DNA of 31,973 nt, from positions 1 through 31,973 of IMG/VR virus record IMGVR_UViG_3300043399_000240, one strand, 5' to 3'. Source of the DNA: a virus. Below, piece by piece: positions 1,148-16,882 of the stretch. The notes beneath the pieces are model-generated. The model had not been told where the DNA came from, did no database searches, and was given only the letters and a program-made list of their open reading frames with translations. Position 1 is the first letter of the stretch. Every line of letters starts with the position of its first letter. Position numbers and translations under genes: made by a program.

Positions 1148-2005
1148 TTACTTTAAAAATTCCCAAACGAATAGTTTAGTATAAATTACTTCAGCCTTTT
1201 GTTGAAGTGTTTGATCAGTTCTATTCTCTAAACTTTTTAGCTGAAATCTGGCAGATTTTGCTTCATAAAAGTCTTCAAAGTTTCCAGCCGTTTTTCTTAA
1301 CCTTTTTAAAACTATATCTTTAGCATCAGACCAAAGTTGACGTCTGCGTACTTCTGGTAATTCAACTATTTTTTGGTCAACTAATATTTTACACCAGTAC
1401 ATCCAAAGTTCATCCCAATGTTTATAGTCAAGTTGCAACCCTTTTTGTTTTTTGTTAAGCTGGTCTTTGAATTGTGCAATAACCTTTTGACGCGCTAAAT
1501 AGTTTTTATGTTCTACTTCGCTCCAGAATGTATCACCAGCAACGTTCTTTTCATGTTCGCTTATTACTTTGTTTAGAACTTGGTTTCGTTTAGACTTGTA
1601 AGCTGATAGAATATCGCCTAACATCGACAAGTTAAATTGTCCATAATAGGCTTTCATATCTACCTTTTCAAACTTGTTAGCCGATGCCATTTCAAAAGCC
1701 TGTTTGATTTCTATTGCTCCAAGTTCTCCATAGTAATTATGAATAAAGTTTATAGCTTCAGCCATAATATTTTTATTGAAGTCGTTTTTGTGGATTCCAC
1801 AATACATTTCAGCGCATAATGGTAAGGTAAATGAAATAGAATTTAGGATATCGTCTTTGTGCATTTCACGAATAGGGTTCTCATATCCTATTATCATGTT
1901 TTTTACTTCATTACTATTTTCTGAAAGTTTTGGCAGCAAGTTCTCTAACGTCAAGAATAAATTGCTCACGCCCTGCGTCTGTGTCTGCATAATTTCCTTT
2001 ATCAT
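1148..2005 (-). CDS. putative replication partner of the initiator (lambda P position)
   Basis: 285 residues, mostly helical, without a Walker motif. The central part (around EIKQAFEMA and the aromatic YYGQFNLSMLGDILSAY) resembles a family I associate with Flavobacteriia phage replication loci, of unknown function. It lies directly downstream of the initiator and overlaps it by 92 bp if the ATG at 2005 is used. Alternative in-frame ATGs are at 1990 and 1897; the one at 1897 would remove the overlap. Its place after an origin-bearing initiator gene is like that of lambda P, so helicase loading is a reasonable guess, but no sequence feature proves this. Confidence 0.6.
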   Translation of the reverse strand: MIKEIMQTQTQGVSNLFLTLENLLPKLSENSNEVKNMIIGYENPIREMHKDDILNSISFTLPLCAEMYCGIHKNDFNKNIMAEAINFIHNYYGELGAIEIKQAFEMASANKFEKVDMKAYYGQFNLSMLGDILSAYKSKRNQVLNKVISEHEKNVAGDTFWSEVEHKNYLARQKVIAQFKDQLNKKQKGLQLDYKHWDELWMYWCKILVDQKIVELPEVRRRQLWSDAKDIVLKRLRKTAGNFEDFYEAKSARFQLKSLENRTDQTLQQKAEVIYTKLFVWEFLK

Positions 2006-2714
2006 CGATTAGTGGTTTTTGTGTGTTTGATTGAGTTAAATATTGTTTGTCTATAAATGTACCTTGATATTGGTTAGCTATTGCTGTTTGAATGCTTTCA
2101 ATTACGGCATTTTCTCCATAATTATCTATTTGCTGTGACCATTGACTAAGTTTAGTCTGAATAGATTTATCAGCTTTAAACGCTTTACCTATTTGTTTAC
2201 GGTATTCAAAAAAGTCATTACTGGCTTTTATCATTTTGTCTGTAAAGTTAGTAGGATAAATTTCAACTGCTTTATTATTTACTTGTTTTTTAATTTGATT
2301 TTCAGAAAATGAATTTTCTTTATATTCTTTTTTATTATTAAGAATTGTATTATTATTATTATTATATTCTTTTGTATAGAAGTTTGCTTCAATAGGGTTA
2401 GAAGTTAAATTCGATACGGGTATAGAAGTTTGATTCGTACGGGTAAGATAGATTCTTCTAAATGTTCCTTTACTATTCTTATCTATTTGCAAATCAATAT
2501 ATCCACATTGTGCTAACTTTTGTAACCAGAAAGTAATTGACCTATCAGATACTTGATACAAATCTGCAAAGTAACCATTTGTTGCATAACAATAACCTTC
2601 TTTATTACACAAAGCAGTAATCTCAGAATAAAGTAATTTAGCATTTGCTGGTAAGTTCTTATCGTATCTTACTTCAGCTGTAATTATACCGTAATAATTT
2701 GGTTGCTCTTTCAT
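1914..2714 (-). CDS. phage replication initiator, winged-helix DNA-binding protein
   Basis: 266 residues. Residues 1-95 form a winged-helix domain of the replication protein type: PNYYGIITAEVRYDK, LLYSEITALC, then a recognition-helix region DLYQVSDRSITFWLQKL and a wing ending FRRIYLT. A linker rich in Asn and Lys (about 95-150) follows, then a helical C-terminal domain (TDKMIKASNDFFEYRK onwards). The linker is encoded by three tandem 23-bp repeats and an ATT-repeat tract (2331-2443), which look like iterons and an unwinding region inside the gene, as in lambda O. It is followed with overlap by the putative partner gene. Binding of the linker-region repeats by this protein is inference. Confidence 0.78.
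   Translation of the reverse strand: MKEQPNYYGIITAEVRYDKNLPANAKLLYSEITALCNKEGYCYATNGYFADLYQVSDRSITFWLQKLAQCGYIDLQIDKNSKGTFRRIYLTRTNQTSIPVSNLTSNPIEANFYTKEYNNNNNTILNNKKEYKENSFSENQIKKQVNNKAVEIYPTNFTDKMIKASNDFFEYRKQIGKAFKADKSIQTKLSQWSQQIDNYGENAVIESIQTAIANQYQGTFIDKQYLTQSNTQKPLIDDKGNYADTDAGREQFILDVRELAAKTFRK
2331..2443. other. candidate replication origin inside the initiator gene
   Basis: Seen directly: an A+T-only-like tract with ATT trinucleotide repeats (about 2331-2371) lies beside three contiguous 23-bp repeats (2375-2443). Known precedent: lambda-type phages place iterons next to an AT-rich unwinding element inside the initiator gene. The repeat length is not a multiple of three, so the encoded peptide does not repeat; the selection must be on DNA rather than on protein. 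The assignment as the origin is inference from this layout. Confidence 0.6.
2375..2443. repeat. three tandem 23-bp iteron-like repeats
   Basis: Unit 1 is 2375-2397, unit 2 is 2398-2420, unit 3 is 2421-2443, with no spacer. All three contain TAGAAGTT near the start and end in GGG; units 2 and 3 end in ACGGG. Units 1 and 3 both start TATAGAAGTTTG. About 23 bp is two turns of B-DNA, so the same face of the helix would be presented at each unit. An inverted half-site TTCTTCTA follows at about 2453-2460. Confidence 0.8.
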
Positions 2715-2717
2715 ATA

Positions 2718-3014
2718 TTATTTTTTAAACATTTCATAATCTATTATAAAATCAAATTCAGTTTCTAAAAAATTTAAATGTAATTCTATTTTATCTATTA
2801 CATACCATTCGCCAAATGCAGTATGGTTTTCATCTTTAAAAACATTATGTAACATTCTTTCAATGTCAGAATAATCATCACCTTTATAAAATCCAATAAC
2901 ACGAATATTATAAGGATTACCAGTTTGTAAAATTTTTACTCTATCTTTTATAGATTTTGATGTTTTACCAAATTTTATAAATTTATCAGCTTTTAAAATG
3001 TAAACATAACCCAT
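2718..3014 (-). CDS. GIY-YIG superfamily protein (T5orf172/MUG113 type)
   Basis: 98 residues. The pattern GYVYILKA (residues 2-9), FIKFGKTS (12-19), Arg25, IERMLHNVF with Glu52 and His56, and GEWYVI (68-73) matches the T5orf172/MUG113 branch of the GIY-YIG fold. Members are DNA-cutting or DNA-binding proteins, often selfish or regulatory in phages. It ends 3 bp before the initiator gene and begins 17 bp after a complex hairpin. It could be a free-standing homing-type nuclease or an early-gene regulator. The domain call is firm; the activity is not established by the sequence. Confidence 0.78.
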   Translation of the reverse strand: MGYVYILKADKFIKFGKTSKSIKDRVKILQTGNPYNIRVIGFYKGDDYSDIERMLHNVFKDENHTAFGEWYVIDKIELHLNFLETEFDFIIDYEMFKK

Positions 3015-3031
3015 AGTAATTAAAATAAATT

Positions 3032-3080
3032 AGCCCAAACAAACTTAGTGTAGTAGGAGTACACTAAATCTGAATGGGCT
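3032..3080 (-). promoter_or_regulatory. two-tier hairpin with 7-nt loop, upstream of the GIY-YIG gene
   Basis: Outer stem AGCCCA 3032-3037 pairs with TGGGCT 3075-3080. After an internal loop, TTAGTGTA 3045-3052 pairs with TACACTAA 3060-3067. The loop 3053-3059 is GTAGGAG on the plus strand, CUCCUAC in the minus-strand RNA. No U-run follows, so it is not an ordinary terminator. It lies 17 nt before the start codon at 3014. Its whole loop is complementary to the loop of the next hairpin. Confidence 0.7.
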
Positions 3081-3100
3081 TGATAACCTTATTATTTCTA

Positions 3101-3133
3101 CTTATTTTAAAATCTCCTACAAATTAAAATAAG
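3101..3133 (-). promoter_or_regulatory. 10-bp hairpin whose loop complements the neighbouring hairpin loop
   Basis: CTTATTTTAA 3101-3110 pairs perfectly with TTAAAATAAG 3124-3133. The 13-nt loop contains CTCCTAC at 3114-3120, the exact reverse complement of GTAGGAG at 3053-3059. A short alternative hairpin TAAGA 3130-3134 / TCTTA 3140-3144 overlaps the 3' arm and would compete with it. The region 3015-3193 has no convincing ORF, so this looks like a structured leader or intergenic RNA. Confidence 0.7.
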
Positions 3134-3193
3134 ATTCCGTCTTAATTATGTATCAAAAATAACAACTATTTATGATATAAGCAACTTTTACTA

Positions 3194-3928
3194 CTACTTT
3201 TTAAAATATTTTTTGCGTTCTAAACTATCATGTAAGGCAATCTTACAATTCAACATACTGTCATAACTCCTATTGCTTATTCTTGAATCGCAAACTAAAC
3301 CCTTATTATTTTCACAATGGTAAACCCATTCTCCATTCTGGTCTATCAATTCAATATACAAATTTTTGTTTCTAATAGTACCTATAAACTTATATACTTT
3401 TTGTCCATCAAGTCCAGTATGAGAATAAAAAAATGGTGCTTCATTTATATAATCATAATTTTGGTTAGGTCGCGTTTTTGTAACCACTTTTTTACGCTCT
3501 TTACGTTCTTCAGATGTTATTTCTAACAGCTTATATCTTGTAATATTATATTTATTATGAATATCTTTAAAAGTATATCCATTTTTATAATCCTTTTTTA
3601 TCTGCTCAATATCTTTGTCAGACAATATAGTTTTTTTAAAAGTTAACAAATGAGTATGTCCATTTACTATACTATAAAGTTTTTGTTTTGTCAAACCATA
3701 CTTTAAAACCAAAGTATCATAAGGATATTCAGATAAATAATCTATAATAATTTGTTGTTTTACTTCTGGATTCATGAATTTTCTTGGTATATGTATATCT
3801 TTTAATACTCTGCAAATAGTAGTTATACTAAAATTATACTTATTTGAAAGTTGTTGTTTGTTAAATCCTTTATGATAGTCTTCAATAATTTGTTTCTCTA
3901 TATCCTCTGTTAACTTTTTAGTATTCAT
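3194..3928 (-). CDS. triple helix-turn-helix DNA-binding protein
   Basis: 244 residues. The first 147 contain three successive resolvase/transposase-like HTH units: about 5-50 (EKQIIEDYHKGFNKQQLSNKY), 52-92 (KQQIIIDYL, YDTLVLKYGLTKQKLY) and 99-140 (IEQIKKDYKNGYTFKDIHNKY). The C-terminal 95 residues are beta-rich (KVYKFIGTIRNKNLYIEL) and unrecognised. It ends with three successive stop codons, TAG TAG TAA. The arrangement resembles DNA-binding parts of phage homing endonucleases, but I see no nuclease motif. It stands next to the GIY-YIG gene with a structured 180-bp gap between, so the pair may be one mobile or regulatory unit. Confidence 0.65.
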   Translation of the reverse strand: MNTKKLTEDIEKQIIEDYHKGFNKQQLSNKYNFSITTICRVLKDIHIPRKFMNPEVKQQIIIDYLSEYPYDTLVLKYGLTKQKLYSIVNGHTHLLTFKKTILSDKDIEQIKKDYKNGYTFKDIHNKYNITRYKLLEITSEERKERKKVVTKTRPNQNYDYINEAPFFYSHTGLDGQKVYKFIGTIRNKNLYIELIDQNGEWVYHCENNKGLVCDSRISNRSYDSMLNCKIALHDSLERKKYFKK

Positions 3929-9174: not shown

Positions 9175-10592
9175 TATGCGCCAAGTTTTTGTTCAGGTAA
9201 AGGTTGTGTATCTAATCCAGTATTTTCTTTTTGTAAAGGCTGAAACCCTAACTCCGCTCTTTGCTCATCCATTGTCAATACAGCTTTAATATCTAAATCT
9301 CCAGCAAAAGAAACTGGCATAGGTTTAGCAATATCCAAAGCTATATTCGACCAATTCTTACCAAAGAATTTAGCAGCATCTTGAATAACTGGATTCAAAA
9401 ACTTAGTTAAAAATAGTCTTTGGGTTGGTCTAATAACCGTATTGTAAACGATATCAAACTCACTTCTAATTTGTTGGTTAGAACCTAAGCTGCCAGACGT
9501 TCTAAGACCAGTTAAACTCATAGTCCAACGATGTGCAGAAATAATAGCTTGTTGTGCAATGTTCTGTAATTGCATAAACTCACCATCATAACTATTATTC
9601 AAAACTTGAACGTCTGACTTATAAGAGTTATCTCTTAAAGCCTGAATAAACATCTTTGAATTATTTCCAGTGCCAGTAAAACAATCGCGCATTGCTCTAA
9701 CTACCTCTTGTGCCTCTTCTTGATTTGTCGAACCGTATAAAGATATAATTGCACTCGGTGTGAAACCGTTTTCAAACTTACTTTGATTGAACTTAGGAAT
9801 ACGATATTCCAATTCAGACCATATCTTTGCACTTACCCAATCAGGTATTCCCCAATATACCAATGTAGGTTCATAGTTCTTTAAGTGAATAATAGATTTT
9901 TCTACACCATCGAATTTCTCAAAGTGTGGAAATAAAGGTAAATCAATAGGATCTTTTGGTGTAATTACATAGTGCTGCTCAAACTCAGAACTTATGCCAA
10001 TATGAGTAGGATATAATTCATCTTTACCAGCTTTCTTAGGTCTGCACCATGTAATTGGTAGCAAACGCATTGTATATTTTAGCGTTTTTCCTACTTTAAT
10101 TCGCTGTAATTCGATAAAAGCATTACCAAAACTTGCAAAATCTTTGAAAATTTTTCCACTAAGTTCCTCGATACTCTCATTCTCAAAATTTACATTAGAC
10201 AAAAAGTCGTTTATTTCTTGTTCTTGCTCTATCGTTATTGTCTGGTTTTCTATTCTTTGTTCCTTAAGGCTTGATAGCACACTAAGAGAAGAAGCAGGTA
10301 CGCTATAAAACCCATCCCCTAAACTATAATTAACTTTTTGCTGAATGATTGATGCCGTTGTTGGCGAATTATTACAGATAGCTTGAATCCTATCTAAACG
10401 CCAAAGGTCGTAAGTATTAAATGGTAAATACTCTACGACTGTTGTGTCGAGAAATTCCTTTGTAGGTTCTCTAAATATATCATCAACTAAAAAAGGGCGA
10501 ACGCCAAGTTGAACACCTGTCCACGCGTGTACTTTGTTCGAGATGGTAGGATTCACATTGGGTCTATTCGCCCTCAGATTTGATTTCTTCAT
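9174..10592 (-). CDS. phage portal protein
   Basis: 472 residues, normal portal size. It has the long conserved order of a portal: N-terminal arm, the stretch LPFNTYDLWRLDRIQAICN, a central block ending in ALRDNSYKSDVQVLNN, then the helical segment SEFDIVYNTVIRPTQRLFLTKFL with the C-terminal crown (FQPLQKENTGLDT). Known role: dodecameric gate for DNA entry and the assembly start of the head. Unusually it lies downstream of the capsid gene, and is separated from the terminase by about 17 kb of tail and accessory genes. It overlaps the preceding small gene by 29 bp. Confidence 0.85.
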   Translation of the reverse strand: MKKSNLRANRPNVNPTISNKVHAWTGVQLGVRPFLVDDIFREPTKEFLDTTVVEYLPFNTYDLWRLDRIQAICNNSPTTASIIQQKVNYSLGDGFYSVPASSLSVLSSLKEQRIENQTITIEQEQEINDFLSNVNFENESIEELSGKIFKDFASFGNAFIELQRIKVGKTLKYTMRLLPITWCRPKKAGKDELYPTHIGISSEFEQHYVITPKDPIDLPLFPHFEKFDGVEKSIIHLKNYEPTLVYWGIPDWVSAKIWSELEYRIPKFNQSKFENGFTPSAIISLYGSTNQEEAQEVVRAMRDCFTGTGNNSKMFIQALRDNSYKSDVQVLNNSYDGEFMQLQNIAQQAIISAHRWTMSLTGLRTSGSLGSNQQIRSEFDIVYNTVIRPTQRLFLTKFLNPVIQDAAKFFGKNWSNIALDIAKPMPVSFAGDLDIKAVLTMDEQRAELGFQPLQKENTGLDTQPLPEQKLGA

Positions 10593-16541: not shown

Positions 16542-16580
16542 TAGTCCTGACATTATGCAATACTAATCTGCCACAGGACT
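16542..16580 (-). ncRNA. small acceptor-stem element (39 nt), derivative of the tRNA-like element
   Basis: On the minus strand it starts AGTCCTGTGGCAGA and ends CAGGACTA: a perfect 7-bp stem and a discriminator-like A with a 24-nt interior in place of D, anticodon and T arms. The stem and the TGGC[AG]GA that follows are the same as in the element at 16729-16882, and the A/T flank after it (ATTTTTAATTTTAAAA) also matches. It looks like a deletion copy of that element. Alternatively it is a simple hairpin with a weak U tract. Confidence 0.45.
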
Positions 16581-16586
16581 ATATAA

Positions 16587-16706
16587 TTATGTAAAAAAAT
16601 ACAATAGGATTAGTATAAAAGGTATTATAACATAGAACCCAATAGGATCAAATGGATAAAGCATTTCTTCTATTTCTTTGTATATATTGATAAATTTTTT
16701 TTTCAT
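16587..16706 (-). CDS. 39-residue single-pass membrane peptide
   Basis: MKKKFINIYKEIEEMLYPF followed by a hydrophobic helix ending IPFILILLYFFT. A basic start then a transmembrane segment at the C-terminus. It lies between the two tRNA-like elements, 22 bp after the larger and 6 bp before the smaller. Short, but the start context is A-rich and the hydrophobic pattern is coherent. Role unknown. Confidence 0.45.
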   Translation of the reverse strand: MKKKFINIYKEIEEMLYPFDPIGFYVIIPFILILLYFFT

Positions 16707-16728: not shown

Positions 16729-16882
16729 TAGTCCTGATAGGATTTGCACCTATATGACCCTTCACACGTATGTTGCATCGGTCTTTCTTATGATACAATC
16801 GTAATCATATTACTTAGCGTCTACTATTGTTATAAAGGGAGTGACCACGTTTCTCCCAATATAAGCATTCCGCCACAGGACT
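16729..16882 (-). ncRNA. tRNA-like element with inserted D-loop hairpin (154 nt)
   Basis: Acceptor AGTCCTG (16882-16876) pairs perfectly with CAGGACT (16736-16730) followed by A. A 5-bp T-stem ATAGG/CCTAT with a 7-nt loop TGCAAAT abuts the acceptor with no spacer, as in tRNA. After the acceptor comes TGGCGGAAT and later GTAGACGC (16824-16817), like the D arm of Leu/Ser tRNAs. A hairpin (16830-16864: TTATA, GGGAG, 11-nt loop, CTCCC, TATAA) interrupts the D-loop. No standard anticodon arm is visible; a 6-bp stem with a 9-nt loop is at 16789-16809. The T-loop has G instead of T at position 55. It may be a tRNA-derived RNA or pseudogene. Confidence 0.5.

Follow-up and report, generated by a model that had tools for sequence, protein, structure and literature searches.

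We identified a kissing-loop RNA element in a phage genome, taken whole as a virus record of 31,973 bases (hereafter the window), and established its structure, its covariation in related phages, the strand of its RNA and its position relative to a promoter box, a T tract and a start codon. Two hairpins, pairing loops and compensatory changes in both loops and stems were all found, and together they support a kissing-loop RNA acting in cis, as a first-pass annotation of this DNA had proposed. That part of its regulator idea stood, whereas an intron remnant, switchable pairings and a primary link to a GIY-YIG gene did not. Judged from sequence, this looks like a real RNA element, apparently undescribed, that helps to decide the expression of the gene behind it.

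Two hairpins and their genomic setting

The genes flanking the element all lie on the minus strand, and the relevant RNA is thus that of the minus strand. Read in this direction, the order is promoter box, hairpin A, linker, hairpin B, T-rich tract and the GIY-YIG start codon (3014), and the element lies inside the 179-nt gap that separates the HTH gene from the GIY-YIG gene. The features, all on the minus strand, are as follows:

3194–3928, minus: HTH gene; ends just upstream of the element; C-terminal domain conserved in close relatives
3154–3161, minus: promoter −7 box TATTTTTG; predicted transcription start near 3149, before hairpin A
3101–3133, minus: hairpin A, CUUAUUUUAA / UUAAAAUAAG, 10 bp with a 13-nt loop; the 5' member on the minus strand
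3114–3120, minus: kissing segment of loop A, GUAGGAG; pairs with 3053–3059
3081–3100, minus: linker between A and B, 20 nt, AU-rich, single-stranded
3032–3080, minus: hairpin B; 7-nt loop on an inner stem of 13 bp, joined through a 2x2 internal loop to the outer stem AGCCCA/UGGGCU
3053–3059, minus: kissing segment of loop B, CUCCUAC; complementary to the loop A segment over 7 nt
3015–3031, minus: terminator-like T-rich tract AATTTATTTTAATTACT, which separates hairpin B from the start codon
2718–3014, minus: GIY-YIG gene (T5orf172/MUG113), inserted between the element and rep
1914–2714, minus: replication-initiator-like gene (rep); HTH_36; PHROG replication initiation

The two hairpins and the 7-nt complementarity of their loops, which the first-pass annotation had reported, are present where it placed them. 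Its location of hairpin B was correct, but its count of 8 bp and 6 bp becomes 13 bp and 6 bp on the minus strand, where G–U pairs form that have no counterpart on the plus strand. The stems of hairpins A and B are unrelated in sequence. The minus-strand intergenic RNA was predicted to fold at −40.7 kcal/mol, in comparison with −27.5 ± 3.9 kcal/mol for shuffled sequences (z −3.4), and none of the 200 shuffles was as stable. Our kissing-pair scanner gave the pair a score of 83. Across 150 dinucleotide-shuffled versions of the entire window, scanned on both strands, none reached this score and the highest was 78.5, while a score of 63 is at chance level, being attained by 89 of 150 shuffles.

The promoter box fits the sigma-A −7 box of Bacteroidota, which has the consensus TAnnTTTG at positions −12 to −5 (PMC9723704). 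Hairpin B, which is stable and has a T tract behind it, has the makeup of an intrinsic terminator and is a predicted terminator, ending 17 nt upstream of the start codon. The T tract of the window is interrupted (AATTTATTTT) and among the weaker ones, its relatives having TAATTTTTTTTTATG and similar tracts, and termination may therefore be weak in the window phage. The protein of the HTH gene (3194–3928) varies at its N terminus, whereas its C-terminal domain, of unknown function, is strongly conserved, and the end of this gene adjoins the element in most close relatives.

Covariation among close relatives

Relatives were retrieved via the rep and ERF genes and keep the intergenic gap; with the GIY-YIG gene as query no relative passed, and the ORF after rep gave none in the genome-contig scan. 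For covariation, we compared the window with four distinct relatives (five sequences) in a hand alignment anchored on the stem bases, which was used because MAFFT misaligns hairpin A across groups. All 160 cells were paired, 125 of 125 in the stems and 35 of 35 in the kissing helix. The stem of hairpin A was paired in 50 of 50 cells with changes on both sides at three pairs, that of hairpin B in 75 of 75 cells with such changes at five pairs, and four of the seven kissing pairs had changed on both sides, giving in total eight stem pairs and four loop pairs with two-sided changes. The loop pairs (A/B) were as follows:

Window: GUAGGAG/CUCCUAC
L063: GGAGCAG/CUGCUCC
L065, L067 and L070: GUAGAGA/UCUCUAC
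L068: GUAGAAG/CUUCUAC

Between the window and L063, two kissing pairs changed from T–A to G–C and from G–C to C–G, and these are true compensations because the loops are equal in length and in the same register. Covariation of stems and loops, the test put forward with the original observation, was thus found in related phages, and no relative combined intact stems with noncomplementary loops. The kissing cells were also fully paired in a group with HNH genes (35 of 35) and in the L073 group (21 of 21), where L073 (CGGGAAG/CUUCCCG) and L066 (CUGGAAG/CUUCCAG) show a clean compensation; sequences within a group do not count as independent cases. Across the three groups (window, HNH and L073), G–U cells outnumbered A–C cells 25:1, an excess suggestive of a coding-strand RNA, and the coding-strand RNA gave the better fold in 23 of the 25 elements catalogued below.

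The alternative pairings proposed for this region were not conserved. The complementarity between GTAGTAG (3050–3056) and CTACTAC (3191–3197) exists in the window but is absent from the relatives in an alignment read by eye, and it most likely arose by chance; the competing TAAGA/TCTTA hairpin (3130–3144) is likewise broken in L063 and L068. Switchable pairing between these sequences is not supported, and the conserved sequence showed no second fold that would open hairpin B.

That the element lies just before the start of the GIY-YIG gene is true of the window, but this is not its primary link, as the gene is missing in relatives that have the element before rep. In L065, L067, L068 and L070, rep comes immediately after the element; the GIY-YIG gene is absent in L065 and L067, and L063 has an HNH gene in its place. 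By sequence comparison, the GIY-YIG gene was inserted later, separating the element from rep. Behind the element of L085 there is a GIY-YIG-like gene related to that of the window, and in L068 an MT-A70 methylase gene, which has a kissing element of its own (GUCUUCAC/GUGAAGAC), has been added upstream. GIY-YIG, HNH and MT-A70 methylase genes have inserted repeatedly at the junction of element and rep, making it a hot spot (window 1914–3014, L063, L068, L070, L073 and L085), and behind the conserved element the N-terminal domain of rep has been exchanged, with at least five unrelated types present.

Occurrence in other phages

Unrelated phages share this layout, the element standing ahead of rep, HNH, GIY-YIG and MT-A70 methylase genes. 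This wider set came from other rep-type queries and scans, and most instances are metagenomic contigs; further elements are those of L028, L075, L086, L183–L187, L208, L215, L218, L221, L222 (two), L233 (two), L127/L176, L287 and L196. We catalogued 25 elements, whose cognate loops are complementary over 7–11 nt and differ in sequence. The noncognate loop combinations match over 5 nt or fewer in 573 of 590 cases; the remaining combinations involve loops that resemble GTAGGAG or are alike in some other way. The paired cores are 14–36 nt apart, mostly 20–30 nt, and the kissing helix alone amounts to about −7.6 to −18 kcal/mol by nearest-neighbor rules. From the end of the inner hairpin B to the ATG there are 11–38 nt in all 25 elements, and a T tract follows B in nearly all of them, being interrupted in the window and L063 and short in L233a. 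Across 1.29 Mb of contigs, 33 scan matches were obtained in comparison with 4 in a mononucleotide shuffle within 200-base blocks, the scanner having been tuned on the first examples found and the 33 matches often counting one element on both strands and including a few with the wrong layout.

In 13 of the 20 elements that are not Firmicutes-like, a TAnnTTTG box occurs in the 40 nt preceding hairpin A and ends 3–20 nt before it; among AT-rich control windows, 4.7% have such a box. L065 and L068b have a TAnnTTGY box, which is an alternative form (PMC9723704), and the boxes of L063, L068 and L186 are imperfect. TATAAT-like boxes and purine-rich ribosome sites were seen in L222, L233 and L215, and the hosts of these three are therefore probably not Bacteroidota.

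Three contigs each have two elements, with different loops and at different genes (unknown, NUMOD4/HNH, MT-A70 and rep):

L222: 605–686 and 1388–1477
L233: 454–531 and 1390–1460
L068: 3346–3420 and 5102–5196

In L028 (5895–6005), the loop segment CCACTAC is found again just before the rep start codon, and loop B could pair with this second CCACTAC instead, possibly making a real switch in L028 only. L127 and L176, which come from MAGs labeled Clostridium and Ignavibacteriales, share a nearly identical phage rep region that includes the element; at least one of the two is probably misbinned.

A search of viral contigs for the exact hairpin pattern gave 0 matches because both loops and stems vary. 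The element was not found in any of four isolate Bacteroidota phages (P2559S, FCL-2, 11b and B124-14), and most of the homologous rep genes examined are without it. Among HTH_36-type rep loci of Firmicutes phages and prophages, the right layout occurred only in the near-identical L127/L176 pair, and approximately 690 Bacteroidia genome draws gave few relatives of rep and no convincing element, one locus possibly lying outside the scan. As the element is missing from many rep loci, it is not essential for rep.

Possible mechanism, known systems and other candidates in the window

We favor a cis leader that would govern either termination at hairpin B or the entry of ribosomes immediately downstream of it, and with moderate confidence regard the element as a self-contained, attenuator-like 5' leader RNA of a phage replication gene. 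Transcription would begin at the promoter, 0–17 nt before hairpin A, and the nearness of the two would make hairpin A the 5'-terminal structure of the transcript and the first to fold. Hairpin B would be made some 25 nt later, and loop A would capture loop B on its emergence (over 7 bp in the window), giving a compact structure in which the 5' hairpin locks the terminator hairpin; a core distance of mostly 20–30 nt leaves enough length for such a kiss in cis. Since B is terminator-like and its inner stem ends 11–38 nt from the start codon, it could stop transcription or block the ribosome, and the downstream gene would be expressed only from transcripts that pass B (GIY-YIG and then rep in the window, otherwise rep). 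The kiss would set how firmly B closes, whether toward a stronger or a weaker B; that B terminates in vivo, and that the kiss alters read-through, we infer from this arrangement. With the loop sequence free and only matching required, the loops could vary while their complementarity stays, and since the stems are unrelated, the kiss would be the end state, unlike plasmid antisense control, in which it leads on to a full duplex. Against a leader or attenuator, the kiss keeps both stems intact, and no alternative antiterminator fold is evident.

A promoter, kissing hairpins and a terminator might equally produce a free-standing, nuclease-resistant RNA of approximately 110 nt that acts elsewhere, the downstream gene merely adjoining. 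The 5' hairpin, the terminator-like 3' hairpin and the protected loops would stabilize such an RNA, and a promoter box is present, but we consider it unlikely given that a start codon follows the inner hairpin B within 11–38 nt in 25 of 25 elements and that hypervariable loops give no fixed target sequence. Terminated leaders could instead pair with nascent leaders and stop rep transcription, as trans-acting feedback or immunity RNAs of the P4 CI RNA or plasmid antisense type, with the loops setting immunity specificity. The position before replication genes, loops complementary to those of another copy and the two copies with different loops in one phage (L222, L233 and L068) agree with this, and P4 halts its own replication genes through RNA-dependent premature termination (PMC4825925). 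The loops can, however, pair in cis at a far higher effective concentration, the linker lengths fall in the band fitting a cis kiss, and the element is also found at HNH and methylase genes; we consider action in trans quite unlikely. A P4-type immunity RNA would be a short RNA acting in trans on two leader targets; in the element, one complementary segment pair is conserved.

Control could also be translational, a kiss-held hairpin B occluding ribosome entry at the adjacent start codon in the manner of leader pseudoknots or hairpins of plasmid rep or T4 homing endonuclease genes. Hairpin B ends near the start codon in all elements, and leader hairpins do control T4-type endonuclease genes (PMC2988022), but the start codon is outside the hairpin, and the T tracts and the promoter boxes beside hairpin A suggest transcriptional control, so we assign this explanation a low probability. 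GIY-YIG, HNH and methylase genes inserted next to the element would suit an origin, recombination or homing site with hairpins in single-stranded DNA and accessory genes inserted alongside. Such a DNA-level role is very improbable in view of the 25:1 ratio of G–U to A–C, the better fold of the coding strand, and a promoter and terminator layout that is repeated at different genes. Chance complementarity or decayed repeats have nothing specific to recommend them beyond the fact that lower-scoring kissing-like pairs (about 63) arise by chance; for the window pair, the 0 of 150 shuffles speak against chance and the covariation refutes it, and we regard the probability of this explanation as negligible.

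Fully complementary loops that control replication functions are found in ColE1 RNA I/RNA II and in the repZ pseudoknot of ColIb-P9/IncB. In ColE1 the kissing is intermolecular and the stems are complementary too, and in repZ a loop pairs with a segment beside the start site, whereas the phage element has unrelated stems and pairs loop to loop in cis. The leader of pT181 rep resembles the element in its 5' hairpin, terminator hairpin and loop–loop contacts (PMC4878617), but it kisses a separate antisense RNA and uses an antiterminator fold, neither of which is evident for the element. P4 CI RNA immunity likewise involves leader RNA pairing at phage replication genes tied to premature transcription termination (PMC4825925); its processed RNA, however, pairs in trans with seqA and seqC, while the element consists of two loops and we found no third segment. 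The guanidine-II riboswitch (mini-ykkC) has two short leader hairpins with a 7–40 nt linker and loops that kiss within one RNA (PMC7357161). Its loops are a conserved ACGR that pairs over 2 bp around the ligand, in contrast to the hypervariable loops, the 7–11 bp pairing and the terminator-like B of the phage element, and loops such as GTAGGAG, GTACCAT and CGGGAAG, which are without ACGR, exclude membership in that class. Leaders of T4-type homing endonuclease genes also place RNA structure directly before endonuclease genes (PMC2988022), but there a single hairpin sequesters the ribosome site, whereas in the phage element both kissing hairpins stop short of the start codon; with B ending 17 nt before the start and the element also standing at rep without an endonuclease, we rejected this assignment as well.

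The covariance models of 4,227 Rfam families gave nothing above the gathering score across the whole window, and at E up to 1 the one weak match was mir-962 (17.4 bits, against a cutoff of 70). The element thus has no Rfam match as a group I or II intron or the remnant of one, an identity suggested at the outset, and it sits between complete genes. No description of it was found in the open-licence literature, which is weak evidence of novelty. As its sequence is free, homology searches and Rfam-style models miss the element, and a search for complementary loops detects it. Tentatively, the elements could be a portable and previously undescribed class of phage regulatory RNA, in which a promoter is followed by a 5' hairpin that kisses its own terminator hairpin through free but matching loops. 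Such a class would be used more than once in a single phage, at rep, homing endonuclease and methylase genes, each time with different loops, and could act as a gene-specific, possibly copy-number-sensing, replication gate. If this is true, phages would have a compact RNA gate, placed on replication-start genes and homing endonucleases, whose specificity code is any complementary loop pair, a natural version of the orthogonal attenuator sought by RNA engineers, and the effect on termination of a kiss onto the terminator loop becomes a testable question.

Two further candidates in the window were rejected. The one at 10483–10584 (plus strand) has no gene directly downstream, and 15 of 150 shuffles reach a score of 69. 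The other, at 16629–16548, has the chance-level score of 63 (89 of 150 shuffles), its hairpin A falls inside a 39-aa ORF, and its hairpin B resembles a remnant of an upstream tRNA-like copy. On the minus strand at 16730–16882, we observed a tRNA-Leu-like sequence (AGTCCTG...GTGGCGGAAT...GTAGACGC...GGTGCAAATCC...CAGGACT) with an apparent hairpin insert of approximately 40 nt in the D-loop, on which ARAGORN and Rfam called no tRNA. The short hairpin at 16548–16580 (minus strand) has the same ends, AGTCCTGTGGC...TCAGGACTATTTTTAA, as the tRNA-like copy upstream, from which it seems to derive by deletion or duplication, and it mimics part of a second kissing element at the chance-level score.
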